Of a stretch of 64,000 nucleotides of DNA, positions 22,153 through 41,953 are shown in pieces (within the stretch, counting starts at the first letter, position 1; each line of letters begins with the position of its first letter). The translations under genes and the position numbers were made by a program. The stretch is from Ceratorhiza oryzae-sativae (taxonomy: Eukaryota; Basidiomycota; Agaricomycetes; Cantharellales; Ceratobasidiaceae). The notes under the pieces are model-generated. The model did not search any database, had not been told where the DNA came from, and saw only the letters and a program-made list of their open reading frames with translations. The DNA is taken from NCBI GenBank assembly GCA_030998015.1, contig JARWMV010000062.1, positions 17,704 through 81,703 of the forward strand, written 5' to 3'.

Positions 22153-22163
22153 GGTCCCCCCCC
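22153..22163 (-). other. Polypurine tract of the gypsy element
   Basis: On the element strand a G8-A run ends 2 nt before the 3' LTR. Such a tract primes plus-strand synthesis in LTR retrotransposons. Position and composition support it. Confidence 0.6.
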
Positions 22164-22377: not shown

Positions 22378-25300
22378 TTATTTAGGTTGCGTCTTATCTT
22401 CGCGAGCGAGTGGGAATCGTGATTTGGGACAAGGGGTCACCGGGAGCGTAGATGCTTCGACCGGGTCGGAAGGACGAGTAGCGGCTGCATCTCGAGCGCG
22501 AGCTTGTTGGAGGCTATCGGCGTACGCGGCCAAGGGTGTGTTCGGACGTGGGATGAACGGACGCAGAAGGCGTGCGTGGGCAGCTGAGGAGAAAAGTTTG
22601 CCGTGTAGGTCTTCGAGTTCGTACGAGTTGGTGGCCCGCGAGCGGATTCGTAAAGGACCAGACCATCGCGGGGCAAGTTTGCGTTCGGCGGCATGAGTCT
22701 CGTCCCACCGAGCATTGTAGCGTTGAACCAAGTCGCCTATCTGGAAGGATACGGGCTTGACGTGTTTATCGAACTGTCTCTTGCGGCGGTTGGCGTGTTT
22801 GAGCGCTTTCGCGAAACCGTCTTGACGAAGGGCGTACGTGAGTGCCAAATTTACATCCACCTCCTCAGAGGTGGGTTCGTTGATGGGGTGACTCAGCTGG
22901 TATCGGCGTTCCGCTTTAAGTTGACCAGTCAGGAGCTCGCAGGGCGAGTAACCTCCGAGGGAGGCGAGTGCACGGTCGTTGAGTTGTGAAACCGCCGTGG
23001 CGAGATGTTTCGGCCAGGATGCGGGGGTTGTGGATGCGTCCGCATCCTCGTCCGGGGACTCTCCGACCGTTGGAGTGCATAAGCACTTGAGTCGACCAAT
23101 AACGAGCTTGATACTGCCTTCTGCCAGGCCGTTCGTCCAAGGAGCATACGGTGGGGTCTTGAGCGGTTGAACGTTACGGCTCTGTGCCCATTCGCGGACC
23201 TCGGCACAATCGAAATGAGAGCCACCGTCCGCCATGAACGACTGTGGTGTGAGGAGGCCATTGGAAAGTCGTTCTAACGCGTTGACGGTCGATTTGCCAG
23301 TCCCGGGGCTGCGGAGCGGAGTCGCGAATATGAAACGGCTATAGACGTCGACGAGAATCAGGGCACACTTGAAGCCGCCATAACCAGCGGGTAGCGAAAC
23401 ATAGTCCCCGACTATAAGATCAAAGGGGCGGGCTCGAGTGATGGGTTGGAGCTGCGCTGACATGAGACGGGGGCCGAAGTTCTTACACCAGGGACAGGTA
23501 ATGACCGCATCTGTCATGTCTCAACGGAGGCCGGGCCAGTAGTATGCCTTTTGTAGTGCCAGAACACCCGCATCTCGCCCGAAGTGGCCACCTGCGCAAT
23601 GGATCGACATAGCCAGTTCTCGAGTCTCGGACGAAGGTATACACTCAACTTTGTGTACCAAGTTCGAGTACCTGCCACCGACTATCCACAGCTTCCCATC
23701 CTCAACCACGAATCCCTCCGCTCGATGGGCAAGTCTCTTCTGGGCTCTGAGTTGATCATGGGTGAGGCCCGAGTTGTCTCCGGAGTCGAAAAGGATGTGC
23801 ATGAGGATGTCTGAGAAGAACGGATCTTTCTCGAATCGTTTGATGAGATCTGTGGTAGAGTTGTCAGCGATCAAGTGATACACGTTGTTGATAATGCCTT
23901 GGCGGGTCTCCCATCCTGGGTCAATCGTGTCCTCACGGCCGGGAGCATCTTCGTCGGGCCGGTGTTTGTACATCCTCGAAAGGCCATTGGCAACTTTGTT
24001 CTCGGCACCTGGCTTGTGTCGTACCGCTATGATGTTACGAGCGATAATCGATTCCCGCCATCGTTTGTGCGTCGAATTCAGCTTGTCGTTGTTGAGAAGG
24101 TCGGCAAGGGCTTTACAGTCGGTCTCGAGTTCAATGGCTTGACCGTGGATGATGCTGTCGAACTCGTCCAGTCCGAACTTGAGGGCGGCGAACTCGAGCA
24201 GGAACGGTATGTATCTTTCTTCTGTGCGTGAGGTTCTTTTCGACGCAAAGGCAACCGGATACATCACCTTGCATATGACTCCGGCACCGTCTGCTTCTTC
24301 CCATTCCTGCGAGAGGACCGCGCCGAAGCCGAATTTTGAGCCGTCCGTTGTAACCGTGAACGACCTCCCATTGTAGACCGGGGATCGGGTGACTGGATCG
24401 CTTGTCAGAATCGTCTTGAGCTTGATGAACGCCTGTCTAGCCTCGTCGTCGAGCGTGACCCGTGTGTCCTTGAGGGCTTCCTTATAGGCGTTTCGCTTTG
24501 TCTGGACTTGGGGAGGTCGTACGTCTCGTGTGAGGTCTGAGAGTGGCTGTGCGATACGGGCGTAATCTTTGATTTTTGAACGATAAGATCCAACCGAACC
24601 TAGAAAACCTAAGACTTCAAGTGCAGACTTGGGTTCTGGCCATTTAAGAATCGCCTCAACTTTGGTTAAATCCGGGCGAACGCCGTCTTTCGAGCAGCGT
24701 GCACCCGCGAATCGCGCTTCTGTCATAAAGAGGACCGTTTTAGCTGGAGAAAGCGAAAGTCCGTGAGTGCGGCATTTGAGGAAGATTTTACGAAGACTCC
24801 CCAGCCCGCTGTCAAATTCGTTGCAAGGTGCTGCAACGTCGTCCATCCAGACTTCGAGATCGGTGCCGATCAGGTCGTGCATCGCGGCTGAAACAACTTC
24901 GCACCAGGTAGTTGGGGCACCGGTCAGTCCGAATGGCATGCAGAGGTACACGTAGTATCCACGTCCATCGACATGGAACCCTGTATAGGGAACGCTCTCT
25001 GGGGCCATTGGGATGGCGTGGAATCCAGCCATAAAGTCCATGACCGAGATCCACCGGTGCCCTGCTACTTTTCTTTGCATGGCAGCAAGGTCGCCCATTG
25101 GAAAGGGTCGAATCTGTGTGTGGCGATTGACAGCTGCATAGTTGTGCACTACACGGAACTTTGGCTCACTGGGTGCTTGTGCTTGTTCAGGAAGAGAGGC
25201 TTCAATGTCGGGCCACATGATCGGTAGGTTGTTAAGTCGGCATTGCTCGTTAGCCATTCTCCTGAGGTGTTCGAGGCTCGGGAGTTCGGCGCCGCCCGGT

Positions 25301-26826
25301 TTGGGGACTACGTTGGTCGGGGAGACCGCAGCTACCTCGTCTTGGGGGACTTTCGCAATGATCTTGGCGGCCTCCATGTTGTCGAGGACCTTGTAGAGCC
25401 ATTTGCGTTGAGGGTCGGTAAGTCGCTTTTGGCCTGCTTGCCTCGGGAACGACATGCCTTCCGGGATGTCCAGACGGTGTTGGATGAAGTCTACAGGGGA
25501 AACCTCCAAGAGTGATAGAGCGAACACGTCGGCAAACTCTCTCACCAGGCTCTTAACTCTCTCCTTCTGTTCCGGCAAAAGGTCGTTGCCGATTTTCATT
25601 TTGCTCAGGATCTCGGCCACTCGGTTTGCTTCAAAAGGGTTGCGACGGCGTTGGGAGTCGGCCAGTGGTGGTACATTGACTCGGCGTTGAGCTGACGGGT
25701 GTCTTTCGTCTGTGGTTTGGTTGTTGAGCATGTGGACGTCGGTTGGGCCCTTGGCACGCTCTTGTGCTTGACATGCTCGTTGGATGATCTTCAGCAGGTG
25801 GTCAACCAAGGCATCCTGTGTGGAGTCCGTCAGCAGTATTTCACGTTGCGTCTTTTCCTCCCTCCAAATGCTCGCGCGCTGCCACATCCGTTCCAGAAAC
25901 TCGTCGTCTGACTCTTCAGGCTGCCTCTCAATCTCCTTCTGCACCTGAGCTATCGGCACGACTTCTCCTGTGTTCAACTCTTCGCTCTCATGCACGCTCA
26001 TGCCTAGTGCCCGTTCCATCCTCTCCAATGCCATCTCATCAACCCAGAACGGGTTGTTCGAGTGCTCGAGCGACGACGGCTCTAGCTTCGCGAGGCGGCG
26101 ACTACGGCGGACTGGGGCTGAAACTGAAACTGGCTCACCCGGTTGTTCTGCTAGCATTTTCTCCGGCTCTGGCTCCTCCTTGGTGCTCCTGTCTTGTTCT
26201 CGAATTGGTTCGGGCTCCGGTTGCTGCTCGATCTTGGCCTTGGCATCGTTGGTCGGGGATTCGAATAGAGGGTATTCGTTGACAAGTTCGATCGGCCCCT
26301 GTGTGCCAGTGATGGTGAGTCTGTCCCCTTCGAAGATCTGGATCGCACCTGAGTCCCGAAGCCATGATTTACCGAGGAGCATTTCGAACGCCCCTCGCAA
26401 CTCGAGAACTTCGAAAGAGATGGGCAACCAGCGACCTGCAACTCCGAGGTATGCATTTCCGCGACCTGCCGATTTTTCACATTGACCGTTTGCCATTCGA
26501 CAGATCACGTTGGACTTAGCTAACAGTCCCAGGTCTGATTCGACGCTCCCCCAGTACGTGCGGTCTAAGACACAGAGCATAGCCCCTCCGTCTACCGTCG
26601 CTCGCACTGGGAAGTCATGCTTGTCGTTTTCTCTCCGGAGAAGCGCCCAGACCTGGAACGGGACTTCTCGCTTCTCGTTCGTGTCGTTTAGTTCGTAAAG
26701 TTCGACGATGTCTGGTTCAGTGACTGGCTCCTCTGCCAACGCATCCTCCGACACCGTCTCTCGGGCATCACAAGTGGGGCCAGCGGGTGTGCCACAGTCC
26801 GCCGCTGACCCTACTTGTTTTCCGAC
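22378..26826 (-). pseudogene. pol: gypsy pol: protease, RT, RNase H, integrase (one in-frame TGA)
   Basis: The frame opens at 26826, overlapping the gag end by about 16 nt in the -1 frame, with no ATG needed if frameshifted. Order: retropepsin-like protease (VDGGAMLCVLD near 26595, a DGGA variant of the active-site DSGA/DTGA), reverse transcriptase (CMPFGLTGAP; catalytic VWMDDVAA near 24840, WMDD replacing YxDD), RNase H (TTDGSKFGFGAVLS near 24350), and the integrase HHCC finger (GHFGRDAG ... YYWPGLR). TGA at 23521-23523 falls in that finger; the same frame continues with the two cysteines (CPWC). The integrase core then shows the DDE triad: GDY near 23410, ADGGSHF near 23225 and AEGSIK near 23127. 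The C-terminal GPY/F-like module ends at 22378 with no chromodomain. The stop sits where a CGA (Arg) would fit, consistent with CpG deamination (inference). Confidence 0.9.
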
Positions 26827-28550
26827 TCATAGTAGTCGGTCTCCCATCCTGCGTGTTCGTCAGTCGTCGTCTCCAACTGAAACGTATCGCGAGGACGAGG
26901 GGCCGGAGTCGGGGTGCCTGGGACCGTGCCTGCTCTGCCTTGACACTTTGCCGCTGCCCGCGGGTTGAGTATGACTGCGCGCATGAAGCGCTCACGCTCG
27001 TCCAACGGGGCGTTGGGGCACTCGACGCTGCCATGTATGCCTATACCACACCTGAAGCAGACACCCGGGCCCGGTTGAAGCGAGCCAGGCGTGAGCGGGA
27101 AATGCTCGTCCTGCGTCGGTCTACGAGTCCCGAATTTCTGGTTGTACTTGAGCGTGAGTGCTCGGTGCCGAGCCTGGTCGGCTGGCGTGTTCGGTACAGT
27201 GGGTCGGTTCGGCGTGACCGTGGCGGGCGCGGGCGTGGCAGCGGGCGTGCTGGGCATGTGGGGCGGCTGTTGGCGAACAGGAGTGGAGAAGGCTGGAGGG
27301 GGTATGGGGGGAGGGACAACCAACGCGGCAGCCGCCGGAGGCGTTTCGTCGAAGGACACTTGTGAGCCCCGCTTAGGCGTGGCTGGTGTAACCGATGGTG
27401 TCTTCGGCGAGGACGCTGCTCTAGCAGCCGCAGACAAGGCGGAGGAAGGGAAACGAGAGAGTGAGAGAGAGCTGATAGATTCCAGGAGAGCCCGATCGCG
27501 CCAAGAGTCATACAGTTCGCGATTCGAGAGCTCCCCAATATGTTTGCAAAGGAGGTCAAAGTCTTTAGCGTAGTTGCGGCCCTTGGGTAGCAGCGGGATC
27601 ACGAAGGCAGGCAGGCTTGCGTTGAGCGTGTGAAGGACTCGGTCGCGGTTCGTGCTATCGCAAGCCATTCCGCGCGCACAGTGTTGCATCGCCCACTGCT
27701 GTTGCGGGCGTTCGGGGTTTGTCAGGTCGCAGAGAATGGCCGACCAGGATTGCACATTCATGCTGCTCGACATGAACAGCGCTCGCTGGGCTTCTTCGTA
27801 CGCATCTTGGTCTGGAACTGGTGTGGGCCAACAGGCCTCGATCAGGGGCTCGAGGGTGGTCCAGTCGTTGACTAGGCCCTTGTTGGTAGCGTCCTTCTTC
27901 TGCGCCTGCAGCCAGTTGAACGCCTCGCCTTTGAACGCGAGCGAGTCGGCCCAGAGTTCAGCGCGTTGCTTGCTCGTGACCTCGCGCGTAGCTCATAAGA
28001 ACTTGTATCGCCACTCTTCTTCCGAACAGGGCTTGCCTTCGTCGTCAAAGTCTTTGACGGCGTCGGCCAAGGCTCGGCGCGCTGCTCGTAGGTCCGCGTT
28101 CGCGTCTGGATTCGTCATGGTCGTTGGACGCGAGTTACGGATGAGGGAGGCGAGGGACAGTAATGGGCGCTCAGGGAGTGAACCTCTACGCGACGGAGAA
28201 CTGGTGGCTGCGGGGGGAACAACGGATGAGCTGGCGACTCGGGGGGTGACTGGGGCGGGCTGGGCGCTTGGGCTAGGAGGAAACGGGTAACAGGCGGTCT
28301 CGTCCGCTGGACTCGCTTTCTCGCTCTCGAGGGCTATTAAAGAAGAAAGACTGGGCACGGCCGAGCTGGACGGAGAGGTCTCGACCGATAGTAGAGGTGT
28401 CGTTGAAAGCTGAGAAACCGGGGGGGTAAGGAGACCAATGGTCGAGGACTGGGGTTGGACGGTCCTCGGGATGTAGCGGCCGCGATCGTCCCGGGGTCGA
28501 GGTTCAGCCTTCTTGCGCGACAGTGTAGAAGTAGAGAAAAGGAGGAGCAA
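26811..28550 (-). pseudogene. gag: gypsy gag (capsid/nucleocapsid) with one in-frame TGA
   Basis: One frame runs from about 28550 to TAG at 26811-26813, interrupted by TGA at 27993-27995; sequence on both sides is protein-like (RYKFL before; DSLAFKGEAFNWLQAQ after). A CCHC zinc knuckle near 27040 (CFRCGIGIHGSVEC, spacing C2C4H4C) marks the nucleocapsid, which packages the RNA. The N-terminal third is Ser/Pro/Thr-rich. No ATG lies at the 5' end of the frame, so the start is unassigned. Confidence 0.8.
26817..26823 (-). promoter_or_regulatory. Candidate -1 ribosomal frameshift site between gag and pol
   Basis: On the element strand the heptamer G GAA AAC is set in the gag frame just before AAG TAG. 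Pol is in the -1 frame and is open from 26826, so a slip here would fuse gag to pol. The A-site AAC is a classic slippery codon; the P-site GAA is not canonical. Confidence 0.5.
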
Positions 28551-28730
28551 GAGAGAGAGGGAGAAAGAGGGACGGGGAAAGAAGGTATGGAGAAGGGAGT
28601 GTGGGAAAGCGAACTGCGTGTTTGCCAGATTGATAGGGTCGACGAGAGATAATCAGAAGAGAAGCTGAGTGTACTGCAGATGATAATCGGCAGTGTTGCG
28701 CGCGCTATTAGCACGCAGGTAAGGATATCA

Positions 28731-28745
28731 CCACACTCGTCACCA
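28731..28745 (-). other. Possible primer-binding site
   Basis: TGGTGACGAGTGTGG starts 3 nt downstream of the 5' LTR on the element strand. TGG matches a tRNA CCA end, but the tRNA was not identified. Confidence 0.3.
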
Positions 28746-28748
28746 CGG

Positions 28749-28864
28749 TGGAGAGGGCGCTGCGGTGTGAACGAGTGAAGACAAGATGATTGTTTTAACG
28801 AGTCGTGTGTGTACATATGGGCGCCCAGGACAGAACCCTGGCACCCGCCAGGACCCCCACTACA
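28749..28864 (-). repeat. 5' LTR of the gypsy element
   Basis: 116 bp, 113 identical to the 3' LTR; the three differences are all transitions at CpG, with the T/A state in this copy. The very short LTR is unusual for Ty3/gypsy. Confidence 0.9.
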
Positions 28865-28900
28865 CAGTGGATCAGTGCTTGAGAAATGAGCATACAGTGC

Positions 28901-29297
28901 ACCACATGGAGAGCATATACACTATGCATGGATTTCAATAGTACCTATTGTTTTAATGCTTATAACAAGATTGGCTGACCTCACGCCATATGAATTAGGT
29001 AAGCAAAGTGCCTCTGGTGGCAATGCATACAAAGTATGCAAACACAAGAGTACCTCAATCAGATGCTGGATATAACTGAGCTGTCTATCATGTAATAAGA
29101 ACAAAAAATTTGGAGCATAAAAAAAGCAGTAATAGGGATGTGATCCCACCTTGCATGGAAAACGGAACAGTGCACTGGGTGCGTACTTTGTACGCACACA
29201 GATTATGACTTGCTCATGTGGCAGCGCTGTTGTTAGGATCAGGCAGAGTATGACAAAGCATGCTGGGTTCCCAACAAGGTTGCGTACTTTGTACGCA
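28901..29297. repeat. Direct repeat, copy 1
   Basis: About 395 bp, clearly similar along its length to 29713-30106 (shared landmarks: GGCTGACCTCAC, GTGCCTCTGG, GGAGCATAAAAAAAGCAGTA, GCAGAGTATGACAAAGCATG). Each copy carries three 17-bp palindromes at matching places. No coding frame. Confidence 0.8.
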
Positions 29298-29666
29298 CAC
29301 TTCCTACAAGTTCATCCCTAGCTATATGAAGCCTGCCATGGCCAAGTATTACTCTGCTCTTGCCATAAAACACTAGAGACTGTATGCTAGAATTTCAGCA
29401 GATCTGGTCTCCCATCTATCTCTGCGAGTTTTGCTCCACTCAGCAAGCACTATACTTCGTTCGAAAGCTCTCAACTGTGGCTCTCGAATGACCCATGGCG
29501 CACATTGAGCGGAGTAAAATATGCGGAGATGAACATAAACAGAAGACACTGAAATTCTGGCATGCAATTTTGAGTGCTTTATCATGAGGGCAGAGTAGTA
29601 TTTGGCCATGGCGCATTTTATTTAGCCAGGAATGGGCTTGTAGGAAGTGTGCGTACAGGGTACGCA
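29281..29666. mobile_element. Foldback element, ~386 bp
   Basis: Arms of about 170 bp in inverted orientation. The left arm starts TGCGTACTTTGTACGCACAC then TTCCTACAAG. The right arm read on the other strand starts TGCGTACCCTGTACGCACAC then TTCCTACAAG, and the match continues through CCATGGCCAA and the inner AGAATTTCAG block. Both ends are themselves palindromes. The inner ~200 bp resembles the element at 21454-21636. Non-coding; no target duplication found. Confidence 0.65.
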
Positions 29667-29712
29667 GCTGGATTGACAGCAGCTCAGCACCTAGGCAATA
29701 AGCCTATGGTAC

Positions 29713-30106
29713 ATCACGTGGAGAGGATATGCAATCATGTGGACTTGAATAGTATGTATTATTGTAATGATTTCAACACGCTTGGCTGACCTCACTCTGT
29801 ATGGATTAAGTAAGCAACGTGCCTCTGGCAGCAATGCGTACAAAGTACGCAAACACAAGAGCACCTCAATCAGGTGCTGGATATAACTGGGCTGTCTATC
29901 ATATATTAAGATCAACAAATTTGGAGCATAAAAAAAGCAGTAATCAGGATGTGATTCTGCCTTGCATGGAAAACAGAACAGTGCACTGAGTGCATACTTT
30001 GTATGCACAGACTACAACTCACTCATGTGTCAGCCATATTGTTAGGGTCAGGCAGAGTATGACAAAGCATGCTGGGTTCCCAACAAGGTTGTGTACTTTG
30101 TACGCA
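29713..30106. repeat. Direct repeat, copy 2
   Basis: Second copy of 28901-29297, same orientation, separated from copy 1 by the foldback element. Similarity ends just after the third palindrome (30090-30106). Confidence 0.8.
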
Positions 30107-30681
30107 AAAGGTACTGTGCCATGTATGGTGCCAAGAAAAAACAAAAACTCTGATACAATACTATTCCAAATCATTGTACTGTCATTGTATGATAGTATGG
30201 GCTGTCATGTGGTGTGCATACATTGTATGCAACCCAGTCAGGAGGGACAAGTAAGGGCTTGAGGTTACTCAGGGACAGTGCTTGAAGTGACTGATTACTC
30301 ATAGCTCAGTGGCTGGGACACACCACAGGGTCCACTACACATAGCCATGCTGCTTGGTCAGCAGCAGGTCTCCCACTGTAGAGTGGTACAAAGTATGCAA
30401 CTCTATGCTTGCAGTGTACTTAGATACCTGGGTGCAAGTTTTATTCTGCCATTGAGGCAGTGTTATTTTACCAACATGATTGGAAAGCAAAGAGGACAGT
30501 GCTTAACAGATCAAGTGGCCATGTGGCAGAGCCAAGTGATTTGTCAGCAGCCAATGCCATGAAGCATATGGGTACAAAGTACGCAACTTGCCCACTTAGC
30601 ATGCCATGAGGGACCAGACTGGCATGGGGAAGAGTGCAGGCTGGAACATGGAAAAATCAGACCTACCAGCAGCCTACTACA

Positions 30682-31312
30682 CCCTAATAACCTAACCGAA
30701 CTTAACCTAACATTAATCCTAACCAGATTAAGTAATGGTTAAGGGAGGATTAGTCATCTTTGATGACTTGTCCTTTACTCTCTAGCTGACTAAGTGTCAC
30801 GTGACTCAGGGCTTATTACAAATCCCTGGTCACTTAGTCAGGCACTTCTCGGTCCTCAGGGTCTGAGTGCCTGTTCCGGCGCTTTGAGAACCCTCAGGGT
30901 TCACCGGGCAGGGTCTGGGTGGAGTTGAGTTGAGCCCTCGGCTGGTTGATCCTTGGATCGCTGAGTCCGTGGGAGCCTCGGCTTCACACAGATCAGCTTG
31001 GTTCAGACCTTGATGGTTCTTGGCGTTGGTCAGGTGTCTCCCCCTGATTGGCCAGTCGTGTGGAGGAGTGATCACATGGACGGTTACCATGCGGTCAGGA
31101 TCAGTCAGCTGTTCTTCTCCTTTGTTCGGTTAAGTCTTCTTCCCTTGGCGTTTCTCATGCCAGTGACGTGGCATTTTCGTCTGCCATGGCATAAAAAGAC
31201 ACAGTGGAAGGGCTCTGATGAGTATCTACGAAAGTCTCTCCTGGGTGATTACCTAGGAGTTCTTAGCCTTTCTTCCGCTCGTCGCCGCTCGCACTCACAA
31301 CTCCTCGCTCCA
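30682..31312 (+). repeat. PLE terminal repeat (pLTR), copy 1
   Basis: Begins in telomere-like ACCCTAATAACCTAACC, is near-identical to 34591-35238 and 35371-36017, and ends CCTCGCTCCA. Contains an inverted pair CTGACTAAGTG / CACTTAGTCAG (30787-30841) around a TCACGTGA palindrome and, near the 3' end, the ribozyme. Confidence 0.85.
31207..31272 (+). ncRNA. Hammerhead ribozyme, PLE copy 1
   Basis: Core CTGATGA at 31215-31221 and CGAAA at 31229-31233. Stem I pairs GAAGGGCT (31207-31214) with AGCCTTTC (31265-31272), one G-U. Stem II is GTA/TAC with a 2-nt loop. Stem III carries the hairpin CTCCTGGGT/ACCTAGGAG. Expected self-cleavage is after the T at 31264. Minimal hammerheads of this kind are known from PLE terminal repeats. 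Fold done by hand. Confidence 0.75.
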
Positions 31313-31350
31313 CCTAACCTAACCTAACCCTAACCCTAACCTAACCTAAC
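31313..31350 (+). repeat. Interstitial telomeric repeat
   Basis: Seven contiguous CCTAA/CCCTAA units, C-rich strand on top, so the telomere would have lain to the left. It joins the 3' end of one PLE copy to the truncated 5' end of the next. Confidence 0.9.
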
Positions 31351-32257
31351 CGCAAGCCGTTTAAGGAGCTAAACTCCCTAGTGGAGAAGTTCCATAACGT
31401 GCAGAGGGTAGTCGCTCGCCTAGGCGAGTCGATGAATAAGGGCAAGCTGCCGACGCAGGTCCGCGGGCTTAAAGAGCCTGCGTGGCAAGTGTCAAAGGAG
31501 TTCAGGGCAAACCCGCAAGGGTCGGAGATGCTGCAGACGCTCTCTGCCGCCCACACCGCCTATGTCGACCATGCATACGCGCAAGGTCGTGAACTCAAGG
31601 CCACTGAGGAAGCATTCCTCCGGTCGCAGTTGGCGCACAACGTCTGGTGCCCAACTTGGAAGCGGAAGGTTGAGGATGCCTATGTGGCACTCCAACGAAC
31701 CATTGCCCCTCGCATTGCCGAGGCCATTGAGGGACAACCTCCAGCTATCGAATATGTGGAGGACCCTTTCCGCAAAGGCGAAAAGGACCGTCTGCTTGCA
31801 GACCTCCCCACCTTTGGCACTCAGATCATTGAGATCCAAAATGCTTGCGCGGTTGCAGAGAAGGTGAAGGTGGCAAGGAAGACGGCCATCAAGGACACTG
31901 CCGACGTCGACATGGATGTCAACAATAAACCCATGGACCCTGCCGCCATCAGGGCCATGGTTGGTGCAGAGATTAAGCGTGCGCTTAATCAAAATGTGAG
32001 TATTTTCGATTGGTCGGGTAACTCGCAACCTAACATCGGCTTAGCCGATTGCCAAGCCTGTTCCCAAGGGCAAGGCTCCCAAGTTAGGCCCAATCGCACG
32101 CAAAGGCAAGGGGAAGACAGGCCACACGAGTCCCAAGACAGGACTTGCAGCCCCCCTCCACTATGACCCTGCTCAGAAACGCAAGTTCAAGGGCCAAGGC
32201 GCAAACAAGAACAAAGGCGGCAATTCCAACGCTGGGCCGAGCAGAAGATCCAAGTAA
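31345..32257 (+). CDS. PLE ORF1 protein, 5'-truncated, one intron
   Basis: The frame opens at 31345 within the telomeric run, and its first ATG is 31432, so the natural N-terminus has been lost. The first exon (to 31995) is mostly helical and charged (FHNVQRVVARLGESMNKG; KWKRKVEDAYVAL-type) and ends AEIKRALNQN. An in-phase 49-nt intron (GTGAGT ... CTTAG, 31996-32044) leads to a Lys/Gly-rich nucleic-acid-binding-like tail (PIAKPVPKGKAPKLG; ending GPSRRSK). Introns are known in PLEs but rare in retroelements. ORF2 overlaps the last 90 nt in the -1 frame. Function is inferred: RNA binding or RNP formation. Confidence 0.65.
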
Positions 32258-34557
32258 TCAGAAGCTCTGAATGGAGGTACGAACATCTGTCTAGTTATCC
32301 AGACGATATTTTGTACTTACCCATTAATATAGCCATCAAGGTCCTACTCGAACGCGTCCCGTATGAAATTAGGAGGTTAGCGAAGTTTAGGAAAGGGGTT
32401 CACGTTGGGCCAGGGGTAGTTCTCCCCAATAATGTAGCGTTTCATCTGTCTGCGGGTCTGAAATATATGATGTTTTCTCCTGTGAATCGTTCGATCGTCA
32501 GTCATGCGTGGCAAGATTTTTGCAACCGATTAAGATGGAAGTACTTCTTCCTGAACAAAGACGCTGACAATGATGCTGAAGCAGAATACCTACTGCAATT
32601 TGACTTCAAAGGAAAAACCTCAGAAGGTGCGCCTGATATGAGTCGAAACATGGAAGCAGGTCTTGAGAAAGGGCAAGCGTCTATTGAGCGTATGCTCGAT
32701 GCTATTCCCCCTCATGGATTGCCAAGAGATCACGGTCTTGTGCAGTTAAAGCCTGTTAAGGACTTCATCGACAACGGTGGATACTTAGTCCTTCCTACGG
32801 ACAAAAACCTTGGATGTGCGGTCGTAACACATGAATGGTACCTTCAGCAGTGCCTTAAAATGCTTGAATCTAAAGACTATCAAAAAGTAGTCCCATTCAT
32901 AGCATTAGGACATATGGTTAGAAAACGCGAAGCTATCAGGAAACTGGCTAAAGAAGGGGAATGGCCTGGTGTCTCTAAACAGCAACGTAAGTGGTGTGTA
33001 CACGCCATCCCTGAATGGGATCCTTGGAAAGGAATGCCCAGGTTTTATGGTATCCCCAAGATACATAAAAACCCATGGAAACTGAGACCAATCGTTCCAT
33101 GTCATTCAGCAATGGTAAATCCAGCCACAAAGATTTTCAGCCATTTACTCAAGCCTATAGTCAAGGCGCGACCTTACGTTTTAGAAGGAAGTAAGGCTCT
33201 AGCTATTGTGCTTGAAGGGGTGAAACTCCCCAAGGATCGGAAAGTATGGATAGTGTCAGGCGATGTCACGGCCTATTATCCAAATGTTCCACTCTTTGAG
33301 AGTAGGAAGATTGTGGCTACATACTGTATAGACCACTATTATCCTGAACGGTTTAATGATAATGACGAATTGGGAGAATTATCAGAAAACCAGATCCATA
33401 AGATGAAGGCGTTCTATGACCTTTTCAACATAGCTAACAACAATCTCATCTTCAGATTTCAAGACCAGTTCTACAGGCAACTTAAAGGTTTGGCTATGGG
33501 TGTAGCGTCATCCCCAGACATAGCCAACCTGTATGGTGCTTATTTTGAAGAACAATTTATACCAACTGAGGCTAGAATTTTATTCTACAGAAGGTATATC
33601 GATGACGTACTAGCTATAGTAGAGGCAGATGACCATGAAGAAGCCTTGAAGATATGTAGCGGTATTAAATTCGATGGCTGCGAAATCGTATGGTCTGCGA
33701 ATAGAGACTTCTCTATCTTTCTGGATATGTTCATATTTATAAAGGATGACTGCGTCCATTATAGAGTGTACAAGAAAGCGCAGAACAATCAAGAACGTAT
33801 CCCATGGGCGTCTCACCATCCTCTTGATGTCAAAAGAGGTACCTTCATTGGTGAAATTACCAGGATGGCTACCCTGTCGAGTACCAAGGAGTACTACGAA
33901 CTGGCCTTGAAGGATCTGCGGGATCTGTACTTGGCCAGGGGGTACCCACCTCACTGCATTAAAACATGGCTGAATAAGCATGCAACCAAACGCTGGAGGA
34001 ACCGTTTGGTTCTGAAAGATGTCACATTAGAACAGACAGGCAGGTTGCACGTCATCAAGACAGTGTTTAATCCAGTATGGGACTACGTTGACATACACGA
34101 AGTACACAACGCGATACTTAGTGAATGGAACAAAGAAACTGTTCCAAGGCAAACAGCTTGGCAGCTCACGCTGTTTGAGGTTGGGGTGGCACAGCCCCAA
34201 CGCAGAACCCGGCATTGCAAGGTTGCGCGTGTTACAGCTAACCTTGCTTCTGTGTCGGAGGTGGTTAGTGAGTCTGACTCCAATCAGGAGGAAGAAGATC
34301 ACCTACCCAGGTCCGCGCAGCTTGGAATACAGGACAGGACAGCACGCAAAAACCTTAGGACAAAGGATGATGCCCTTGCCCAACTAGTCAATCAACGCCT
34401 GATATTATCTTGCAAGCGCCCGCTGGCAATTGGGGATTTAACATCTACATGGCGAAAAATAGTTCTAGCGTACAATGAGGATGAACGCTTTGGTTTGCCA
34501 GAGTACATCTTCAATCGTGTATGGGAGGATCTTGACACAGATCCTCCATTGCATTAG
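32167..34557 (+). CDS. PLE reverse transcriptase (ORF2), endonuclease-deficient
   Basis: The frame is open from 32167, and no ATG appears before the RT-like sequence, so it is likely expressed by -1 frameshift or splicing from ORF1. From 32311 the protein is about 748 codons. Signature blocks: LPTDKNLGCAVVTHEWY, PRFYGIPKIHKNPWKLRPIV (about residue 243), VTAYYPNVP (about 317), LKGLAMGVASSPDIANLY (about 393) and the catalytic YRRYIDDVLAIV (about 428), then IFLDMFIFI and a SHHPLDVKRG motif. These are the PLE/telomerase-clade RT hallmarks. The C-terminal 200 residues are acidic/basic mixed and lack a GIY-YIG endonuclease. Intact with no internal stops. Confidence 0.88.
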   Translation, partial: PCSETQVQGPRRKQEQRRQFQRWAEQKIQVIRSSEWRYEHLSSYPDDILYLPINIAIKVLLERVPYEIRRLAKFRKGVHVGPGVVLPNNVAFHLSAGLKYMMFSPVNRSIVSHAWQDFCNRLRWKYFFLNKDADNDAEAEYLLQFDFKGKTSEGAPDMSRNMEAGLEKGQASIERMLDAIPPHGLPRDHGLVQLKPVKDFIDNGGYLVLPTDKNLGCAVVTHEWYLQQCLKMLESKDYQKVVPFIALGHMVRKREAIRKLAKEGEWPGVSKQQRKWCVHAIPEWDPWKGMPRFYGIPKIHKNPWKLRPIVPCHSAMVNPATKIFSHLLKPIVKARPYVLEGSKALAIVLEGVKLPKDRKVWIVSGDVTAYYPNVPLFESRKIVATYCIDHYYPERFNDNDELGELSENQIHKMKAFYDLFNIANNNLIFRFQDQFYRQLKGLAMGVASSPDIANLYGAYFEEQFIPTEARILFYRRYIDDVLAIVEADDHEEALKICSGIKFDGCEIVWSANRDFSIFLDMFIFIKDDCVHYRVYKKAQNNQERIPWASHHPLDVKRGTFIGEITRMATLSSTKEYYELALKDLRDLYLARGYPPHCIKTWLNKHATKRWRNRLVLKDVTLEQTGRLHVIKTVFNPVWDYVDIHEVHNAILSEWNKETVPRQTAWQLTLFEVGVAQPQRRTRHCKVARVTANLASVSEVVSESDSNQEEEDHLPRSAQLGIQDRTARKNLRTKDDALAQLVNQRLILSCKRPLAIGDLTSTWRKIVLAYNEDERFGLPEYIFNRVWEDLDTDPPLH

Positions 34558-34590
34558 ACAAGTTTGTGATAGAGTTGGTTCAAACCCAAC

Positions 34591-35238
34591 CCCTAACACA
34601 ACCTAACCGAACTTAACCTAACGTTAATCCTAACCAGATTAAGTAATGGTTAAGGGAGGATTAGTCATCTTTGATGACTTGTCCTTTACTCTCTAGCTGA
34701 CTAAGTGTCATGTGACTCAGGGTATATTACAAATCCCTGGTCACTTAGTCAAGCACTTCTTGGTCCTCAGGGTCTGAGCGCCTGTTCCGGCGCTTTGAGA
34801 ACCCTCAGGGTTCACCAGGCAGGGTCTGGGTGGAGTTGAGTTGAGCCCTCGGCCGGTTGATCCTCGGATCGCCGAGTCCGTGGGAGCCTTGGCTTCACAC
34901 GGATCAGCTCGGTTCGGACCTTGATGGTTCTTGGCGTTGGTCAGGTGTCTCCCCCTGATTGGCCAGTCGTGTGGAGGAATGATCACATGGACGGTTACCA
35001 TGCGGTCAGGATCAGTCAGCTGTTCTTCTCCTTTGTTCGGTTAAGTCTTCTTCCCTTGGCGTTTCTCATGCCAGTGACGTGGCATGTTCGTCTGCCACAG
35101 CATAAAAAGACACAGTGGAAGGGCTCTGATGAGTATCTACGAAAGTCTCTCCCAGGTAATTACCTAGGAGTTCTTAGCCTTTCTTCCGCTCGTCGCCGCT
35201 CGTGCTTGCTCCACTCACACTCACGTCTCCTCGCTCCA
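34591..35238 (+). repeat. PLE terminal repeat, copy 2
   Basis: Directly follows ORF2 after about 30 nt and is the 3' terminal repeat of the longest copy. It ends TCGCTCCA and is followed by CCTAAC. Confidence 0.85.
35118..35183 (+). ncRNA. Hammerhead ribozyme, PLE copy 2
   Basis: Stem I GAAGGGCT (35118-35125) / AGCCTTTC (35176-35183), core CTGATGA at 35126-35132 and CGAAA. The stem III hairpin CTCCCAGGT/ACCTAGGAG has one mismatch. Compensated and neutral changes relative to copies 1 and 3 fall in the stem III arm and loop. Confidence 0.72.
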
Positions 35239-35244
35239 CCTAAC

Positions 35245-35337
35245 CTAGCGTACAATGAGGATGAACGTTTTGGCTTACCAGAATACATCTTCAATCGTGT
35301 ATGGGAGGATCTTGACACAGATCCTTCATTGCATTAG
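35245..35337 (+). pseudogene. ORF2 3'-end fragment of a truncated PLE copy
   Basis: Reads YNEDERFGLPEYIFNRVWED in frame to the stop, matching the last 30 codons of ORF2 (34465-34557). It begins right after CCTAAC, so this is a 5' truncation joined to telomeric sequence. Confidence 0.85.
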
Positions 35338-35370
35338 ACAAGTTTGTGATAGAGTTGGTTCAAACCCAAC

Positions 35371-36017
35371 CCCTAACACAACCTAACTGAACTTAACCTA
35401 ACATTAATCCTAACCAGATTAAGTAATGGTTAAGGGAGGATTAGTCATCTCGGATGACTTGTCCTTTACTCTCTAGCTGACTAAGTGTCACGTGACTCAG
35501 GGTATATTACAAATCCCTGGTCACTTAGTCAGGCACTTCTTGGTCCTCAGGGTCTGAGCGCCTGTTCCGGCGCTTTGAGAACCCTCAGGGTTCACCGGGC
35601 AGGGTCTGGGTGGAGTTGAGTTGAGCCCTCGGCCGGTTGATCCTCGGATCACCGAGTCCGTGGGAGCCTCGGCTCCACACGGATCAGCTCGGTTCGGACC
35701 TTGACAGTTCTTGGCGTTGGTCAGGTGTCTCCCCCTGATTGGCCAGTCGTGTGGAGGAGTGATCACATGGACGGTTACCATGCAGTCAGGATCAGTCAGC
35801 TGTTCTTCTCCTTTATTTGGTTAAGTCTTCTTTCCCTGGGCGTTTCTCACGCCAGTGACATGGCATGTTCGTCTGCCACGGCATAAAAAGACACAGTGGA
35901 AGGGCTCTGATGAGTATCTACGAAAGTCTCTCCCGGGTGATTACCTAGGAGTTCTTAGCCTTTCTTCCGCTCGTCGCCGCTCGTGCTCGCTCCGCTCGCA
36001 CTCACGCCTCCTCGCTC
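35371..36017 (+). repeat. PLE terminal repeat, copy 3
   Basis: Same as copies 1 and 2 and ends CCTCGCTC at 36017. The next bases (TACACAGCATAT) are unrelated, so this is the junction with the old chromosome. Confidence 0.85.
35899..35964 (+). ncRNA. Hammerhead ribozyme, PLE copy 3
   Basis: Stem I 35899-35906 / 35957-35964, core CTGATGA at 35907-35913, CGAAA, and stem III hairpin CTCCCGGGT/ACCTAGGAG. All catalytic-core positions are kept. Confidence 0.72.
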
Positions 36018-36059
36018 TACACAGCATATATGCACCATAATCATTCCATCAAATTCTAG

Positions 36060-37076
36060 GATTTTATCCCTCGGGTTAAAGCACACCTGCTGGCTCGCAT
36101 TTCGGGAGGTCGGTATGAGGACGAACAATCTCATGCTGAATATGAACTTGCTCGGGTTCATTTTCATCACGATAGCATATATTCACACCAGACCCTCAAA
36201 ATTCACTATACAACCTACGATACACGTCGTGCTCAAGATACAATTAATCCTTCAACCAAAAAGCGGTTTATTATGGTTCCTTCGGACAGCTATGGAATTG
36301 GGGAAATCGGCGCTCATTGGTTCTGGTACGCACGGGTGATCGGTATCTATCATGCCAATGTATCATATAACGGATCACACCCGAAACGAATGGACTTCCT
36401 GTGGGTACGGTGGCTTTCTCGTATGACCGATGTGCCGGGAGGCTGGGACTCGTGCCGACTCGATCAAGTCGGGTACTTTCCCGATTCGGAGGAATCTCAC
36501 GCGTTTGACTTTGTCGACCCGGCCGATGTGATTCGTGCAGTTCATTTGATTCCACGTTTTGTGGGAGGGCAGACTACATGCTACCTTGAATCTATGGAAT
36601 CACGTGGGGCAGATATCGACAAAAATAGTGACTGGAAGCACCATTACATTGCAAGGTGAGTCTATCCTCGCCAAAACAATATTTTCCGTGCCTTATTCTC
36701 TTGAATAATAGGTTTGCCGACCGTGACATGCTGATGCAGTTCAGTGGGATGGCGATAGGTCATATGACCCACTCACTTTCACCCGCGACTGCTGTCGGAG
36801 TACCTTCAGAAATACTCGCCGCAGGTATTAGTTCAGCCTCGTTTACCCCTTGATCGATCTGCTCAGAGTACTAAATGTATCTTGTTATTAGGTTATGAGT
36901 ACAACGAAATCGAAGATCTAAATAATGCTGGAAGTGAGAATGGGGATGAGGCTCATGGGTTGGAGGAAGGAGTAAACGGGGGCGAGGATGATAGTGAGAG
37001 TGAGGGAGATCATTCAGACGCCGATGATAGCGATGGGATGGCAGAGGATGGTGAGGATGAAGATGTGAGCTGGTAA
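36060..37076 (+). pseudogene. C-terminal part of a basidiomycete hypothetical protein, 5' end lost
   Basis: Starts after an intron-like acceptor (AAATTCTAG) with DFIPRVKAHLLARISGG, then IHYTTYDTRRAQDTINP, HWFWYARVIGIYHA, FLWVRWLSRM, VIRAVHLIPRF and RFADRDMLMQFSGMAIGHM. Exons 36060-36655, 36712-36824 and 36892-37076 join in phase (introns 56 and 67 nt) to a stop at 37074. The tail is very acidic. This module recurs in Agaricomycete hypothetical proteins, often beside transposase-type genes (recollection, not searched). Its N-terminal part is missing because the PLE array ends 42 nt upstream. Confidence 0.65.
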
Positions 37077-37555
37077 TTGCATGTCGCTGTATCAAATTTG
37101 AGAATCAATCATACTTCTGGACATTACGTATCCTTGCAGTTTACCAACTAAGTCTCACCCTACTTACTAGATACAGTTTACAACACGGCTCATGACTCCA
37201 ACCAGGCAACCTCGGATTGCCATATAATGATATCGTGTGACATTACAGATCCCATGATCATTGTGGGCAGGACGGAATGTCATACAATCGATCTTGGCGG
37301 TAAGTAATAGTCAGCTCATTTAGTAAGTGGTCTTAATCGATCAAAATGCACTCAAATCGTCCACAAGCATTTGGAGATTTGAAATTGATGAAAACCCTCG
37401 CGCCGATTTGCCGATGAATTAGTAATTTTTTTGATATGGAAGTCACCCACGGCCAGTATATCTTCATCATTGGTACACCTATCGATACTTTGTGCGAGGT
37501 AATGTTGTCCTTCCAGAGACGGTGCGAGAACCATCATCCAGCCCCAAAACCTAAC

Positions 37556-37696
37556 CTTAACGAGATTTCTGTTCTGGTGGCGATCCTGAAGGGCTAGTAA
37601 CTGCTGGTAGACGTTTCGCAAGTTGTCATCGCCGGGAAACAAGGGCTCGGGGTCATCGAGCTGGGGGAGGGGTCGTCTCCCCTGTTGGGCGGCCAT
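37556..37696 (-). CDS. First exon of a small unknown gene (tentative)
   Basis: ATG 37696 begins MAAQQGRRPLPQLDDPEPLF and continues LRNVYQQLLALQDRHQNR to a GTTAGG donor at 37555. It lies 115 bp from, and divergent to, the UBP12-like gene. Downstream exons (37077-37555) were not resolved. Function unknown. Confidence 0.35.
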
Positions 37697-37811
37697 GGCT
37701 GAAAAGTCTTGTCCGTAATTGGCACGCGGCCGATGACATAACGCTTACCTGAGGTTTGTCGGGCTCTGCTGTCTCCCCATCCGACACCGCCGACGCGTCA
37801 CCCCCATCTCG

Positions 37812-40800
37812 ATGGTCGAGAGCAGCCCTGGATCACCGCACCAACCGAGCCTCAAACGCGCGCGGAGCGACACCGGCGCATCGGGCAGCATGTCGCCGAA
37901 GCGAGCCAACTCGGAGGTTGTCGAGGAGGACATTGGTGCCGGCGGCCACCACGACGATGACATCGAGCACTACATGAGGCTCCAGGAAGAGGGTGGCGAG
38001 GCGGACATCGGGCTCTCTTCAATGGCCGCGCTGGACGAGCCGGTGGGCGATGGGGTGCTGACGGGGCAGGAACGGTACCAGATGATCGCCAACCTCGAAA
38101 AGATGCCGCTCGAGCTCGGCGCGATATGGTATGTCGTGGACAGACAGTGGATGCGCCAGTGGGAGAGAGCCTCCATCGGGAGTGGCGATGGCCTGCCCGG
38201 GCCCAGCGAGCAAACTATCGGCCCAGTCGACAACTCGGCCCTCATCGATGCCAACGCCGGGGGGCTCCATCCAGACCTCGCCTTGGGCGAGGACTACGCC
38301 CTCGTTCCTGAGGCTGCATGGCAAAAGTTCACGGAGTGGTAGGTGGTCTTTGTGTCTCCATCGCGAGGGCTCAACTATCCACAGGTACGGCAAGCCCGCC
38401 ACATCTCTCCCTCGCGAAGTCATAGCCTATGCCCCCGCCGAGCTACGCGTAGAAGTGTATCCTCCCGTCTTCCGTGTCTACCCCCTTCTTTCTCAAAATA
38501 CGATGACCCCCACCTCGGCGTCCCGCGTCGAAATCTCCTCCCTCTTGCATCTTTCTGTGCTTGCCGCCCGAGCTGCTGCCGCCCTCCAACTCCCCACCGA
38601 CAAGCCCTATCGTGTCTGGAACGTTCCCTCACAAACATCCACTACAAACGGCATTCGCGCTTCCGACATTGAACGCGGGACTCTCGTACCCATCCCCCTC
38701 GACTCGAAAACCCCTATTAGCGATTTTGTCAAAATCAGCGACATCCTTGTTGTGGAGACCCAAATCTCCGGCCAATGGCAACTCGATGCCGAGGCCGTCA
38801 CCCTCCCAGCGGATACAGACGCCGATGCCGACACTGACGAACCTCTTTTTTCACGGAACACCGATTGGATTGGGAACATGCAAAACCGACATGCAGCAAA
38901 TGTGACCCAGAGCCCAGATACCCTGCAGCCCCCTCGTAAAAGTGCGTTCTCAGGGTTGTCCTTTAGGGGAAAGAGCCCAGTTCCAGCTGTGCAACGTGGG
39001 ACGATGGGCCTCCAAAATCTGTGCGTGTTCTGTCGTCGTGTTTGCTCGCGGCTAACGTTCCCAAAGCGGAAACACTTGCTTCATGAATTCTGCCCTACAA
39101 TGTCTCGCTCACATCCCTGAGCTAGACGATTACTTCCTCTCTGGGCTCTATCGGCACGAACTCAACCCCGACAATCCACTCGGCATGCAAGGCCAGATCG
39201 CCAATGCGTTTGGTGCCCTGTTGCATCACCTCTACCCCGGATCAGGTGTTGCTCCGCCTAAACAAGAGCGCGGGTACTCGTCCTGGGGGTTTGGCGGCAG
39301 CTCCTCGTCTTCCTCCTACGCCCCTCGTGAGTTCAAGCAAACACTCGGTCGATTCGCACCCGCGTTCTCTGGATACCAACAACACGATACCCAGGAATTC
39401 CTTGGCTTCCTGCTCGACGGTCTTCATGAAGACCTTAACCGAGTGCTCAAGAAGCCATACGTCGAAAAACCTGAGTGGCCGGAAGACGGAGGAGGGCGTG
39501 AAGTCGAAGCCAGACTTGCGAGAGAGACATGGGAAGGCTACAAGCGACGAAACGACAGTATCATCGTCGACTTATTCCAGGGAATGTATAAAAGCACCCT
39601 GGTGTGCCCCGAATGTGCCAAGGTACGCCCGTCCGAATCATCGCTTGATCTAAGCTTACCAAGTGACACAGGTATCGATCACATTTGACCCATTCATGTA
39701 CCTCACTCTCCCGCTCCCCATCACAAAAACCTGGCGACACACGATCCATTACGTCCCCTGGGACGCCAACAAACCACCCCTGGCGGTTCAGATTGAGGTT
39801 CCGAAGGACTCGAGTTACGGGCACCTCAAGAAGTTGTTTGGGCGCTGGTTCAACGTGGATCCGGACAACGTGAGTAAAGCATCCGATTGCACGGCATTTC
39901 TCTCATAGCTTGCAGCTCCTCGCTGCAGAAGTCTGGTCACACAAATTCTATAAATACTACGAAGACTATATGAACTTGACCGATCTTGCCGAGAAAGACG
40001 TTCTAGTCATTTACGAGCTTCCTATTCCAGTCAAATCCGCGGCCAAGCCGACCCCAACCCACTTCAACAAGTTCAGCAAGCTCACTGCCCCCAAACCCGA
40101 TCCCGACGCGCCTTTCGTCCTACCCGTGTTCCACACGCACACGAATCGAGCAGCGTTTGGTGTCCCATTCTTGGTTATGCTCACGCCGGCTGAGGCGTGC
40201 TCCCGCCAGGCGATTTACCGTGCTGTCGTTGACCGGGTTCAGCGGTGGACAAGACTCCGGGCCAATTTGTGGAAATACCGTGGTGCGAGGAATGAGGTCC
40301 AGCCTGAGACCGAGCTGGAGGAGGTGGTGGCGAATATTGAACCTGTCGGACAGGTGGAAGGGCAGGAGAGCGTAACCGAGATCCGCGTCGATGACACGGG
40401 CGAGGAACCCGAGGTGGCTATCATACCTGCACCCTCCCCGGCCGACGTCGATATGATCGATGCGTCACACTCGGAAGTCAGTGAGACTCTGGCATCGGAC
40501 ATTGCCCCAACTATGACATCCGAACTTGCTCCAACGATCAGTTCCGAGTCCGTCCTGCCATCAAAAGACGTCGAAGAGGAGGAGAACCCTTTCGAGGTTC
40601 TTGGTCCTCAGGACGATCTATTCGAACTCAAGATTTACAACTCGGGAACGGCCACAGCGATGGAAACAGGGTTCAACTTGAATCCGACGATGGCTAGGTT
40701 CGTAGATTGGTCGACGCGCGAACCGCGGGTATCGGACATCGAAAGCGAGGGCGAGGACGAACATAGCTGCCCTCCCAAAAGGCAGAGATCCATTCCTGCC

Positions 40801-41953
40801 AGGCCGCTGATCAAAGCATCAGACGCCCTCATCTGCCAGTGGCAACCAACTTTTGTGGACCTGTTCTTTTCATCAGAGGACAGCTTGTTTGATCGGTGGG
40901 AGCCATTCGTCCACCCCGAGGTTGCAGCTCTTCGTGCAGCCCAAACCAAATCTCGTTCAGGGAAACAGGCTATCGATGTCGAAGACTGCTTGGATGAATT
41001 TACCAAGGAGGAGAAGTTGGGAGAAGATGACCTATGGTACTGTCCTCGGTGCAAAAAGCATCAACAAGCGACCAAGAAATTTGAGCTATGGTCTGTGCCA
41101 GACATTCTCGTGGTTCATCTCAAACGCTTCTCGAACGCACGCGCAATGCGGGACAAGATCGACGCGCTTGTGGAATTCCCGATTGATGGTTTAGATCTAG
41201 GGCGGCGTGTAGGGGTGGTAGGAACCGAAGGAGAGGGCTCAGAGGCCGACTACATCTATGATTTATTCGCGGTAGATGAACATATGGGAGGATTAGGAGG
41301 TGGCCATTACCGTGCTTACGCAAAAAATCCATCGGACAGTGAATGGTACCATTTCGACGATAGCTATGTCAGCAGGTCATCCGCTGAGGAATCGGTGGTA
41401 AGTTGTCCTCTAATTACGCCATCCCGGCCTAGATTGATGCCGTTTCCCCTTCAAGAATGCCAATGCCTACCTTTTGTTCTACCGTAGACGAGGCGCTGAA
41501 CCCAACGCGGCAACCAATAAGGTCCGCGCACGTATTAGTTCTGTCAACGACTCCCCGGCCATCCCCACCGAATCGAAGCCCATAGACGTATCCTCCGAGC
41601 CGGTTGTGCGAGCTAATTCTCCAATCGACACCGAACTGCCTTCATTCGAAGAATCGACATTTGACACCCTTGTCCCCGTATCAGCGTATGATCCCAATGT
41701 TCAATATCGATCCCAGGGTTCGGAAGATCCCGATGATGACCCATTCACAAACAACAATACCCCATCGCCCGGATCGGGCTCGACAGGCTCAGCAGGCGCG
41801 ACCTATGACTCTGCTGAAGAGCGGGACTTTGCGGAATCGACGGCAGGACTTGACTCAAGGTTCGCTCTGAGCGGGCCTATAACAGAAGTCGCGGTCACGG
41901 TGATCCAGGAGACTAAACCAGATACCCATCAAGGCGACAATAATGTTGTATAG
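37812..41953 (+). CDS. ubp12: Ubiquitin carboxyl-terminal hydrolase, UBP12/USP4-USP15 type
   Basis: Cysteine protease removing ubiquitin from proteins. Six exons (37812-38338, 38385-39020, 39067-39622, 39672-39869, 39916-41397, 41456-41953) give 1298 aa; introns are 45-58 nt. A DUSP domain (about 85-260: [15 protein letters not shown] ... [12 protein letters not shown]) precedes the USP domain. Cys box [12 protein letters not shown] with catalytic Cys392; His box [11 protein letters not shown] with His1103, then WYHFDDSYV. The USP fold is split by a long insertion with a ubiquitin-like segment and an acidic linker. Zinc-ribbon pairs CPECAK and CPRCKK support the fold. The C-terminal tail is Ser/Thr/Asp-rich. 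The DUSP plus split-USP layout is that of fungal Ubp12 and human USP4/11/15. Expected nuclear/cytoplasmic, linked in yeasts to signalosome and cullin control (family knowledge). Confidence 0.93.

Follow-up and report, generated by a model that had tools for sequence, protein, structure and literature searches.

Telomere-linked Penelope-like elements and the locus studied

Coprina is the name of the fungal relatives of the Athena-type telomeric Penelope-like elements (PLEs), and it is with these elements that a stack of three truncated PLE copies in the genome of Ceratorhiza oryzae-sativae is compared here. The stack lies in a stretch of 64,000 nucleotides (hereafter, the window), which is C62:17704-81703, the right part of a contig of 81,703 bases, and it probably arose through three 5'-truncated PLE additions at a left-facing broken chromosome end, which was later buried by the joining of another repeat, E2. 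Positions refer to the window unless a contig is named; the C-numbers (C18, C44, C135, and so on) denote contigs of the same assembly (48.84 Mb in 253 contigs), and the copies were compared within this one genome.

According to the available portion of PMC3846280, endonuclease-deficient PLEs prime at deprotected telomeres or breaks, with telomere repeats then being added to the truncated 5' end. The Athena elements of the bdelloid rotifers and their fungal relatives share with the present elements a telomerase-like reverse transcriptase (RT) that lacks a GIY-YIG domain, the confinement to chromosome ends, and a truncated 5' end followed by telomeric repeats (PMC3846280). Unlike these elements, the PLE described here is associated with a TTAGG host unit, has one open reading frame (ORF) of ~1,150 amino acids (aa), and has truncations concentrated in an internal telomere-like stretch. 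The terminons of Adineta vaga also resemble the present locus, in their arrays at the telomeres, which are head-to-tail and interspersed, the reverse-complement telomeric repeats at the 3' end of the RNA, and truncation with telomeric repeats, as far as the accessible text of PMC6431247 goes. The terminons reach up to 40 kb and carry accessory ORFs, however, whereas the PLE unit found here has 4,134 bases, which does not make it a giant unit, its hammerhead is only a weak candidate, and its long partner, E2, has no recognized coding sequence.

Among the basidiomycetes, the Penelope elements at the chromosome ends of Agaricus bisporus are likewise linked to the telomeres, although stacking with other end-joined families, as seen here, is not described in the part of PMC7473861 that is available. 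In Drosophila, HeT-A, TART, and TAHRE also alternate as several families at the chromosome ends (PMC12477314, in its available portion), but here short telomere repeats are present, and the predicted RT is of the PLE type, rather than the non-LTR (long terminal repeat) type.

Telomere-linked PLEs of basidiomycetes were thus already known (PMC7473861), and fungi are also mentioned in the accessible portions of PMC3846280 and PMC12477314. No report of PLE stacks in the Rhizoctonia/Ceratobasidium group was found in the accessible open-licence literature, including the available parts of PMC13412209, PMC7952879, and PMC3411680, and zero Penelope elements are tallied for R. cerealis in the available part of PMC12144256. 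What is new here is the multi-family array and the truncation hotspot, telomeric PLEs being already known from rotifers and mushrooms, and TTAGG from Rhizoctonia; the presentation of TTAGG as a discovery was rejected, given that (TTAGG)n ends had been published for this genus (PMC7884421, available in part). This one assembly offers approximately fifty joints for the step-by-step reading of the growth of fungal chromosome ends, with recent, open copies of the element, and the match between the PLE 3' end and the five-base host telomere makes the co-fitting of element and telomere testable.

Three truncated copies, a cut gene, and the telomeric joints

The PLE reference is a full-length copy at C44:4586-8719 (4,134 bases). 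Copies A (30689..31311), B (31351..35237), and C (35245..36017) all lie on the plus strand and have a common 3' end, being 96% alike over 300 bp and 85–94% alike over the last 189 bp. The first-pass annotation had recognized this arrangement, together with the 5'-truncation of the longer copies at telomeric joints, and both observations hold: copy B lacks approximately the first 240 reference bases, its alignment starting at reference base 238, and copy C begins at base 3363. The sole sequence between B and C is a short telomeric joint, CACCTAACCTA (35238..35247, plus strand), which overlaps the start of C, while A and B are separated by a telomere array (31312..31351, plus strand) of 7.6 CCTAA-type units, two of which are CCCTAA. 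Copy A, truncated at approximately reference base 3498, does start in telomere-like sequence, as first described, but the source of this sequence is the fixed end of E2, CCCTAATAACC, followed by the PLE's own telomere-like stretch.

Copy C is followed by the 3' part of a repeated, apparently multi-exon gene (36018..37416, plus strand), which is cut off at 36018. The copies of this gene at C19 and C247 extend upstream with shared sequence, whereas the window copy stops at 36,018, and neither the window nor C62:1-17703 contains a match to the missing front (C19:184500-187878, 3.4 kb). Given this absence of its front on the left side, the gene has been cut, rather than split by an insertion. No empty site was found in this genome. 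The cut gene upholds the earlier proposal that the DNA from 36,018 rightward is the old chromosome, with the amendment that the first copy joined a non-telomeric end.

The DNA at 37499..43434 (with no strand assigned) is shared with C135:1-5935 at 99.8% identity, and C135 bears a different PLE stack, with 859 other bases beyond the shared DNA, followed by two PLE copies with (CCTAA)5 between them. The inner PLE of C135 differs from copy C at 25 of 771 bases, and is closer to other copies. A single insertion shared by the two was rejected, given this divergence and the 99.8% identity of the neighboring DNA, and the simplest reading of the alignments is that the window and C135 would be two homologous ends, which were broken and then rebuilt separately.

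Over the tail (the final 574 bases), the nearest relative of A is found on C244 (19 differences in 559 bases), that of B on C50 (16 in 574), and that of C on C72 (17 in 573). The three copies are not, then, one another's closest relatives, and would represent three separate events. Local tandem duplication was ruled out, as each tail is nearest to a copy on a different contig, and so was the interpretation of A as a plain pseudo-LTR of B, given that the telomere array and the loss of ~240 bases lie between them.

The interpretation of the stack as three terminal additions draws on the structure of the copies, their truncation points, the telomeric joints, the recurrence of the pattern at dozens of joints and contig ends, and the gene cut at 36,018. 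In the proposed mechanism, an exposed DNA 3' end would prime the reverse transcription of an element RNA whose 3' end carries the telomere complement CCACCTAACC, with synthesis halting early, and the new end being capped by telomerase or by the next element. The first addition, C, would have been primed at a non-telomeric break within the gene, the second, B, on a short telomere left on C, and the third, A, on the array now found at 31,312-31,351. The E2 repeat would then have joined the outer end of A through CCCTAATAACC, either by similar priming or by chromosome-end recombination, two routes that are indistinguishable here.

The survey of the family covered 68 alignments in the fetched stretches, and yielded 56 readable 3' ends, four of which enter a PLE body (pseudo-LTR) and 52 of which are free, together with 48 truncated 5' ends, after the exclusion of nine starts of full-length copies and of 11 cases at a fetch border, a contig edge, or an internal insertion. 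The unit ACCTAAC follows 48 of the 52 free 3' ends, with at least two units at 32 of them, and the opposite pattern, of mostly internal PLEs without telomeric joints, which had been set beforehand as decisive against a terminal origin, was not observed. The motif TAAC is present at the joint of 34 of the 48 truncated 5' ends; a fairer count leaves out the truncation hotspot described below, which itself contains TAAC, and gives 21 of 27, in comparison with 2.1% of random 14-base windows of the element.

The contig ends, which were also examined, include that of C66, which ends in a truncated PLE tail directly capped by (TTAGG)16, the product expected of PLE truncation followed by telomere capping. 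In C79, CCTAA-type repeats lie on a truncated PLE tail, and in C148, CCTAA-type units are found with a scrap of PLE tail. The repeats at the joints are of the telomere type, as the first-pass annotation had claimed, but the unit is TTAGG, and not the TTAGGG named there, which is rare. A TTAGGG host telomere was ruled out, given that there is no (CCCTAA)4 in the assembly, that there are 63 overlapping matches of CCTAACCTAACCTAA, and that C66 ends in TTAGG units. For Rhizoctonia JN, LY, and XN, (TTAGG)n ends are reported in the available text of PMC7884421, whose methods name TTAGGG/CCCTAA, and the telomere-to-telomere paper on Rhizoctonia (Ceratobasidium) cerealis, also available in part, names a CCCTAAA/TTTAGGG telomere (PMC12144256). 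All 50 non-zero telomere lengths in Table 4 of the latter are multiples of 5, as counted here.

The element family, its distribution, and the truncation hotspot

The full-length PLE is 4.1 kb long, starts with CCTAACCCAATTGAG and ends with CTCCTCGCTC, and is defined by nine full-length bodies found elsewhere in the genome. Three of these nine copies have a single open frame of ~1,150 aa, and the C44 and C148 copies, which have different neighbors, are separated by five substitutions and five gap columns over 4.1 kb, so that the family seems to have been active recently. Within C44, the 5' tail matches the 3' tail at every one of 574 bases, and this is also true of C148, as expected if both tails derive from one RNA. 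Tail-body-tail continuity (the pseudo-LTR) is found in four copies, on C66, C148, C44, and C100, in which the tail passes straight into CCTAACCCAATTGAG. The full-length PLE near the end of C66 (3579-7277 of the fetched stretch L024) has a frame of 1,233 aa with its ATG inside the upstream tail, and the pseudo-LTR may thus provide the start of the protein.

In the window, copy B contains an N-terminal coding fragment (31381..32166, plus strand), whose frame is interrupted here but uninterrupted in three of the nine full-length copies elsewhere, and an ORF of 748 aa (32311..34557, plus strand) for a putative PLE-type RT, with the motifs GDVTAYYPNVP, GLAMG..SP..ANLYG, and YRRYIDDV. The RT catalytic motifs are invariant across 16 aligned proteins, and 968 homologues of the 748-aa ORF were found, Lentinula edodes being the only species name among the 120 matches listed. 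The Pfam model RVT_1 matched neither the open C66 frame nor the ORF in the window, and matched three of four relatives weakly, while the six best Foldseek matches in the PDB for an AlphaFold model of the RT (pLDDT 68) are telomerase RTs (TERTs). These features point to an RT of the PLE/telomerase type. No GIY-YIG nuclease was found by Pfam in the window ORF (E up to 1) or in the C66 ORF of 1,233 aa (E up to 10), although Pfam also missed the RT; judged by Pfam, the element would be endonuclease-deficient, and would not have the C-terminal GIY-YIG of the canonical Penelope/Poseidon elements.

A hammerhead-like motif, a weak candidate, lies ~60 nt before the 3' end on the plus strand of copies C (35894..35972), A (31202-31280), and B (35113-35191). 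Its core is conserved in the alignment, where 96.2% of the cells pair, in comparison with 40–61% when slid, with no covariation and with 436 of 500 shuffles equaling it. Rfam found nothing at E up to 1, and the lowest-energy folds of the A and B tails differ from the hammerhead fold.

Genome-wide, at least 58 PLE matches form 36 clusters on 30 contigs. With contig ends taken as a proxy for chromosome ends, the orientation of the cluster (3' end inward) matches the nearer end in 28 of the 36 clusters (P = 0.0006), and in 19 of the 22 clusters whose contig measures 100 kb or more (P = 0.0004). On PLE-bearing contigs of at least 0.9 Mb, all seven clusters lie within 100 kb of an end, and 15 of the 16 contigs with several PLE matches have a single orientation. 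By this proxy, and with eight clusters, including that of the window, as exceptions, the PLEs are confined to the chromosome ends, with the 3' end inward. On the 916-kb contig C250, a minus-orientation PLE (C250:95278-97993) lies 95 kb from the left end, which itself bears a plus copy, and this minus copy possibly represents an internalized or inverted end.

The truncations are concentrated within reference 3481-3555, a stretch of 75 bp (1.8% of the element) that contains 21 of the 48 truncated 5' ends, or 12 of the 38 distinct positions, and consists of CCAACCCCTAACACAACCTAACCGAACTTAACCTAACGTTAATCCTAACCAGATTA and the following 20-odd bases. The binomial P is 2e-12 for the distinct positions and 9e-7 within the tail alone, with bounds chosen after seeing the data. 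The stretch is found on the plus strand in the 3' untranslated region of B (34583..34657), where its first 55 bases are telomere-like, and, by alignment to the reference, at 35363-35437 in C and from 30689 to ~30746 in A. Eight copies start at reference 3529 (TAACCAGATTA), and their distal neighbors include the dissimilar families e and c, introduced below; the copies of family e differ by up to approximately half of the alignable positions, as against 2–13% for the adjoining PLE tails. The hotspot is read here as an internal telomere mimic that may have been used repeatedly as a joining site, although it would also be accounted for by short tail RNAs starting there, or by RT stops.

The left flank and the competing explanations

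The 3' part of E2 (28864..30681, plus strand) has tandem units ~811 bp apart, and ends at the base that marks the 3' end common to the family. The telomere-complementary terminus CCCTAATAACC (30682..30692, plus strand) follows in all 13 E2 copies found by pattern, which read CTACTACACCCTAATAACC and then 13 different sequences, namely PLE pieces with differing cut points, or DNA of other kinds. The E2 3' end is reached at 14 places, window included, 13 of them in the pattern count over the fetched stretches. The upstream part of E2 is placed provisionally at 1..22036 (plus strand), and holds other inserted repeats. The longest co-linear match, C18:163944-183079, covers, in pieces, 7720-22035 and 28885-30681 of the window; other parts of the upstream region are found at C75, C95, C242, and C250, and parts of 1-6400 recur at C74 and C45. 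Truncated copies are cut, in window numbering, at 8305 (C250), 17598 (C75), 29768 (C31), and 30313 (C79), each with a PLE 3' end and CCTAA units on the cut, and at 30363 (C51) and 30458 (C36), without them; a PLE 3' end with three CCTAA units also lies at C62 13,996, to the left of the window. No Pfam match to a coding domain was found at E up to 0.1 in the seven ORFs tried, out of 72 with 75 aa or more, which leaves room for accessory ORFs in E2. The first-pass annotation had proposed that the left DNA was joined later, which stands, and this DNA can now be specified as E2, itself a subtelomeric repeat whose 3' end is telomere-complementary.

Nine further families (b, c, d, e, f, g, h, i, and j) have fixed ends and at least one copy adjoining a PLE, with two to six copies each in the fetched stretches, and the 3' end of family b is reached at eight places genome-wide. 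The end is TAACC or AACC in seven of them, but not in d and j, so that there are ten families beside the PLE when E2 is included, eight of them with such an end. A tentative, and on balance doubtful, proposal is that of a general end-capture system, in which the PLE enzyme would also copy unrelated, largely non-coding RNAs that end in the telomere complement (e.g., UAACC) onto the ends, the telomere-like block of the PLE tail would be a spare landing pad when the true telomeres are lost, and the ends would grow by mixed retro-addition in parallel with telomerase. If this copying in trans were true, the RNAs of the PLE, E2, b, d, e, and i would end in UAACC or ACACCCUAAUAACC, and a selfish enzyme akin to telomerase would be making subtelomeres, with a bearing on the relation between telomerase and the telomeric retroelements.

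The strongest of the rival explanations, although an improbable one, is that the stack, or E2 together with part of it, formed elsewhere and was copied here by break-induced replication through shared subtelomeric sequence. E2 is indeed common to several ends, and C135 has a similar two-tail arrangement, in which 12 bases separate the starting point of the inner copy from that of C. Block i, in addition, is identical over 1,200 bp at C9, C24, C31, and C72, where the adjoining PLE bodies differ by 3–4%, with the divergence starting at the joint, and block d varies by 0–1 bases over as much as 219 bp in five locations, in three of which the adjoining PLE tails differ by 22–25 in 580. Both blocks suggest that DNA distal to the PLEs may have been copied onto their ends once these had inserted. 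Against the transfer of the stack itself, the truncation points and joints of A, B, and C are found together in no other fetched copy, their nearest relatives are spread over three contigs, C and the C135 inner PLE show the divergence given above, and many E2 and PLE joints have a homology of a few bases only. End-to-end recombination nevertheless remains a good account of the arrival of E2.

A chimeric join of unrelated chromosome-end pieces, that is, an assembly artefact, is very unlikely. On the right, C9, C24, and C31 terminate at exactly one position, ~15.05 kb past the PLE matches, and their final kilobases are identical, through either the reuse of a repeat by the assembly or an exchange that is very recent; block i may thus have been reused, and repeated blocks may be reused or collapsed. 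In the case of the stack, however, the same architecture is seen again at dozens of joints, with the truncation at other points, and the E2 in the window is not a reused block, given that the long E2 copies differ from it by 3–4%. The simple insertion of a tandem PLE array, pseudo-LTRs included, at an internal site is scarcely credible, for while PLEs are commonly partial tandem repeats with pseudo-LTRs (PMC11167929, in its available part), and tail-body-tail continuity does occur in C66, C148, C44, and C100, the tail there meets CCTAACCCAATTGAG, whereas a telomere array and a ~240-base loss lie between A and B, the gene at 36,018 is cut with its front not on the other side, and no GIY-YIG nuclease was found by Pfam.

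A number of observations weigh against three additions at a broken end. The inner copy of C135 (C135:7577) is cut at reference 3351, 12 bases from the start of C (3363; C62:52948, window 35245), and, like C, has no telomeric 3' joint; these near-equal cuts are a coincidence which is unexplained if the two insertions were independent. The right joint of C has no telomere repeat (CTCGCTC directly followed by TACACAGC), and is one of four such exceptions among the 52 free 3' ends, the others being C135:6795, C233:80243, and C79:70712. At 15 of the 52, there is a single ACCTAAC unit, which may be encoded by the element, given that the pseudo-LTR joints read CCACCTAACCC. The divergence of the window from C135 over 36,018-37,498 leaves the exact old end unfixed. 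The window cluster is nearer the right end of C62 (27,983 bp), and thus among the eight of the 36 clusters that do not fit the orientation, and C62 may fall short of a chromosome end. The near-identity of blocks i and d beside differing PLEs indicates that distal DNA also spreads after PLE insertion, or that it was collapsed in the assembly. The Foldseek TM-scores of the RT are low (0.25–0.36 on the query for the first ten matches), and the TERTs are closely followed by the RTs of group II introns and LINEs.

Within E2, a Gypsy-like LTR retrotransposon (22037..28864, minus strand) is bounded by 116-bp repeats (22037-22152 and 28749-28864, 97% alike), and its empty site is kept at C95 and C242, where 22035 is joined directly to 28864. 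A 1.3-kb repeat in E2 (6404-7714) is also found between two parts of the C147 PLE and near PLEs in C250 and C62, and a 101-bp tandem repeat (2.4 copies, 97% matches) lies at 10443-10684. On the right, the host genes begin ~1.8 kb from the stack, with a gene that has a DUSP domain (37812-38339, within 37812-41487); a following ORF presumably resembles a ubiquitin protease in its motif. The host is a Ceratobasidium-like basidiomycete, judging by one conserved protein, encoded at 57781-59622, which is nearest to those of Ceratobasidium sp. 370 (88%), sp. 414 (86%), and UAMH 11750 (91%, half length), and then Rhizoctonia solani.

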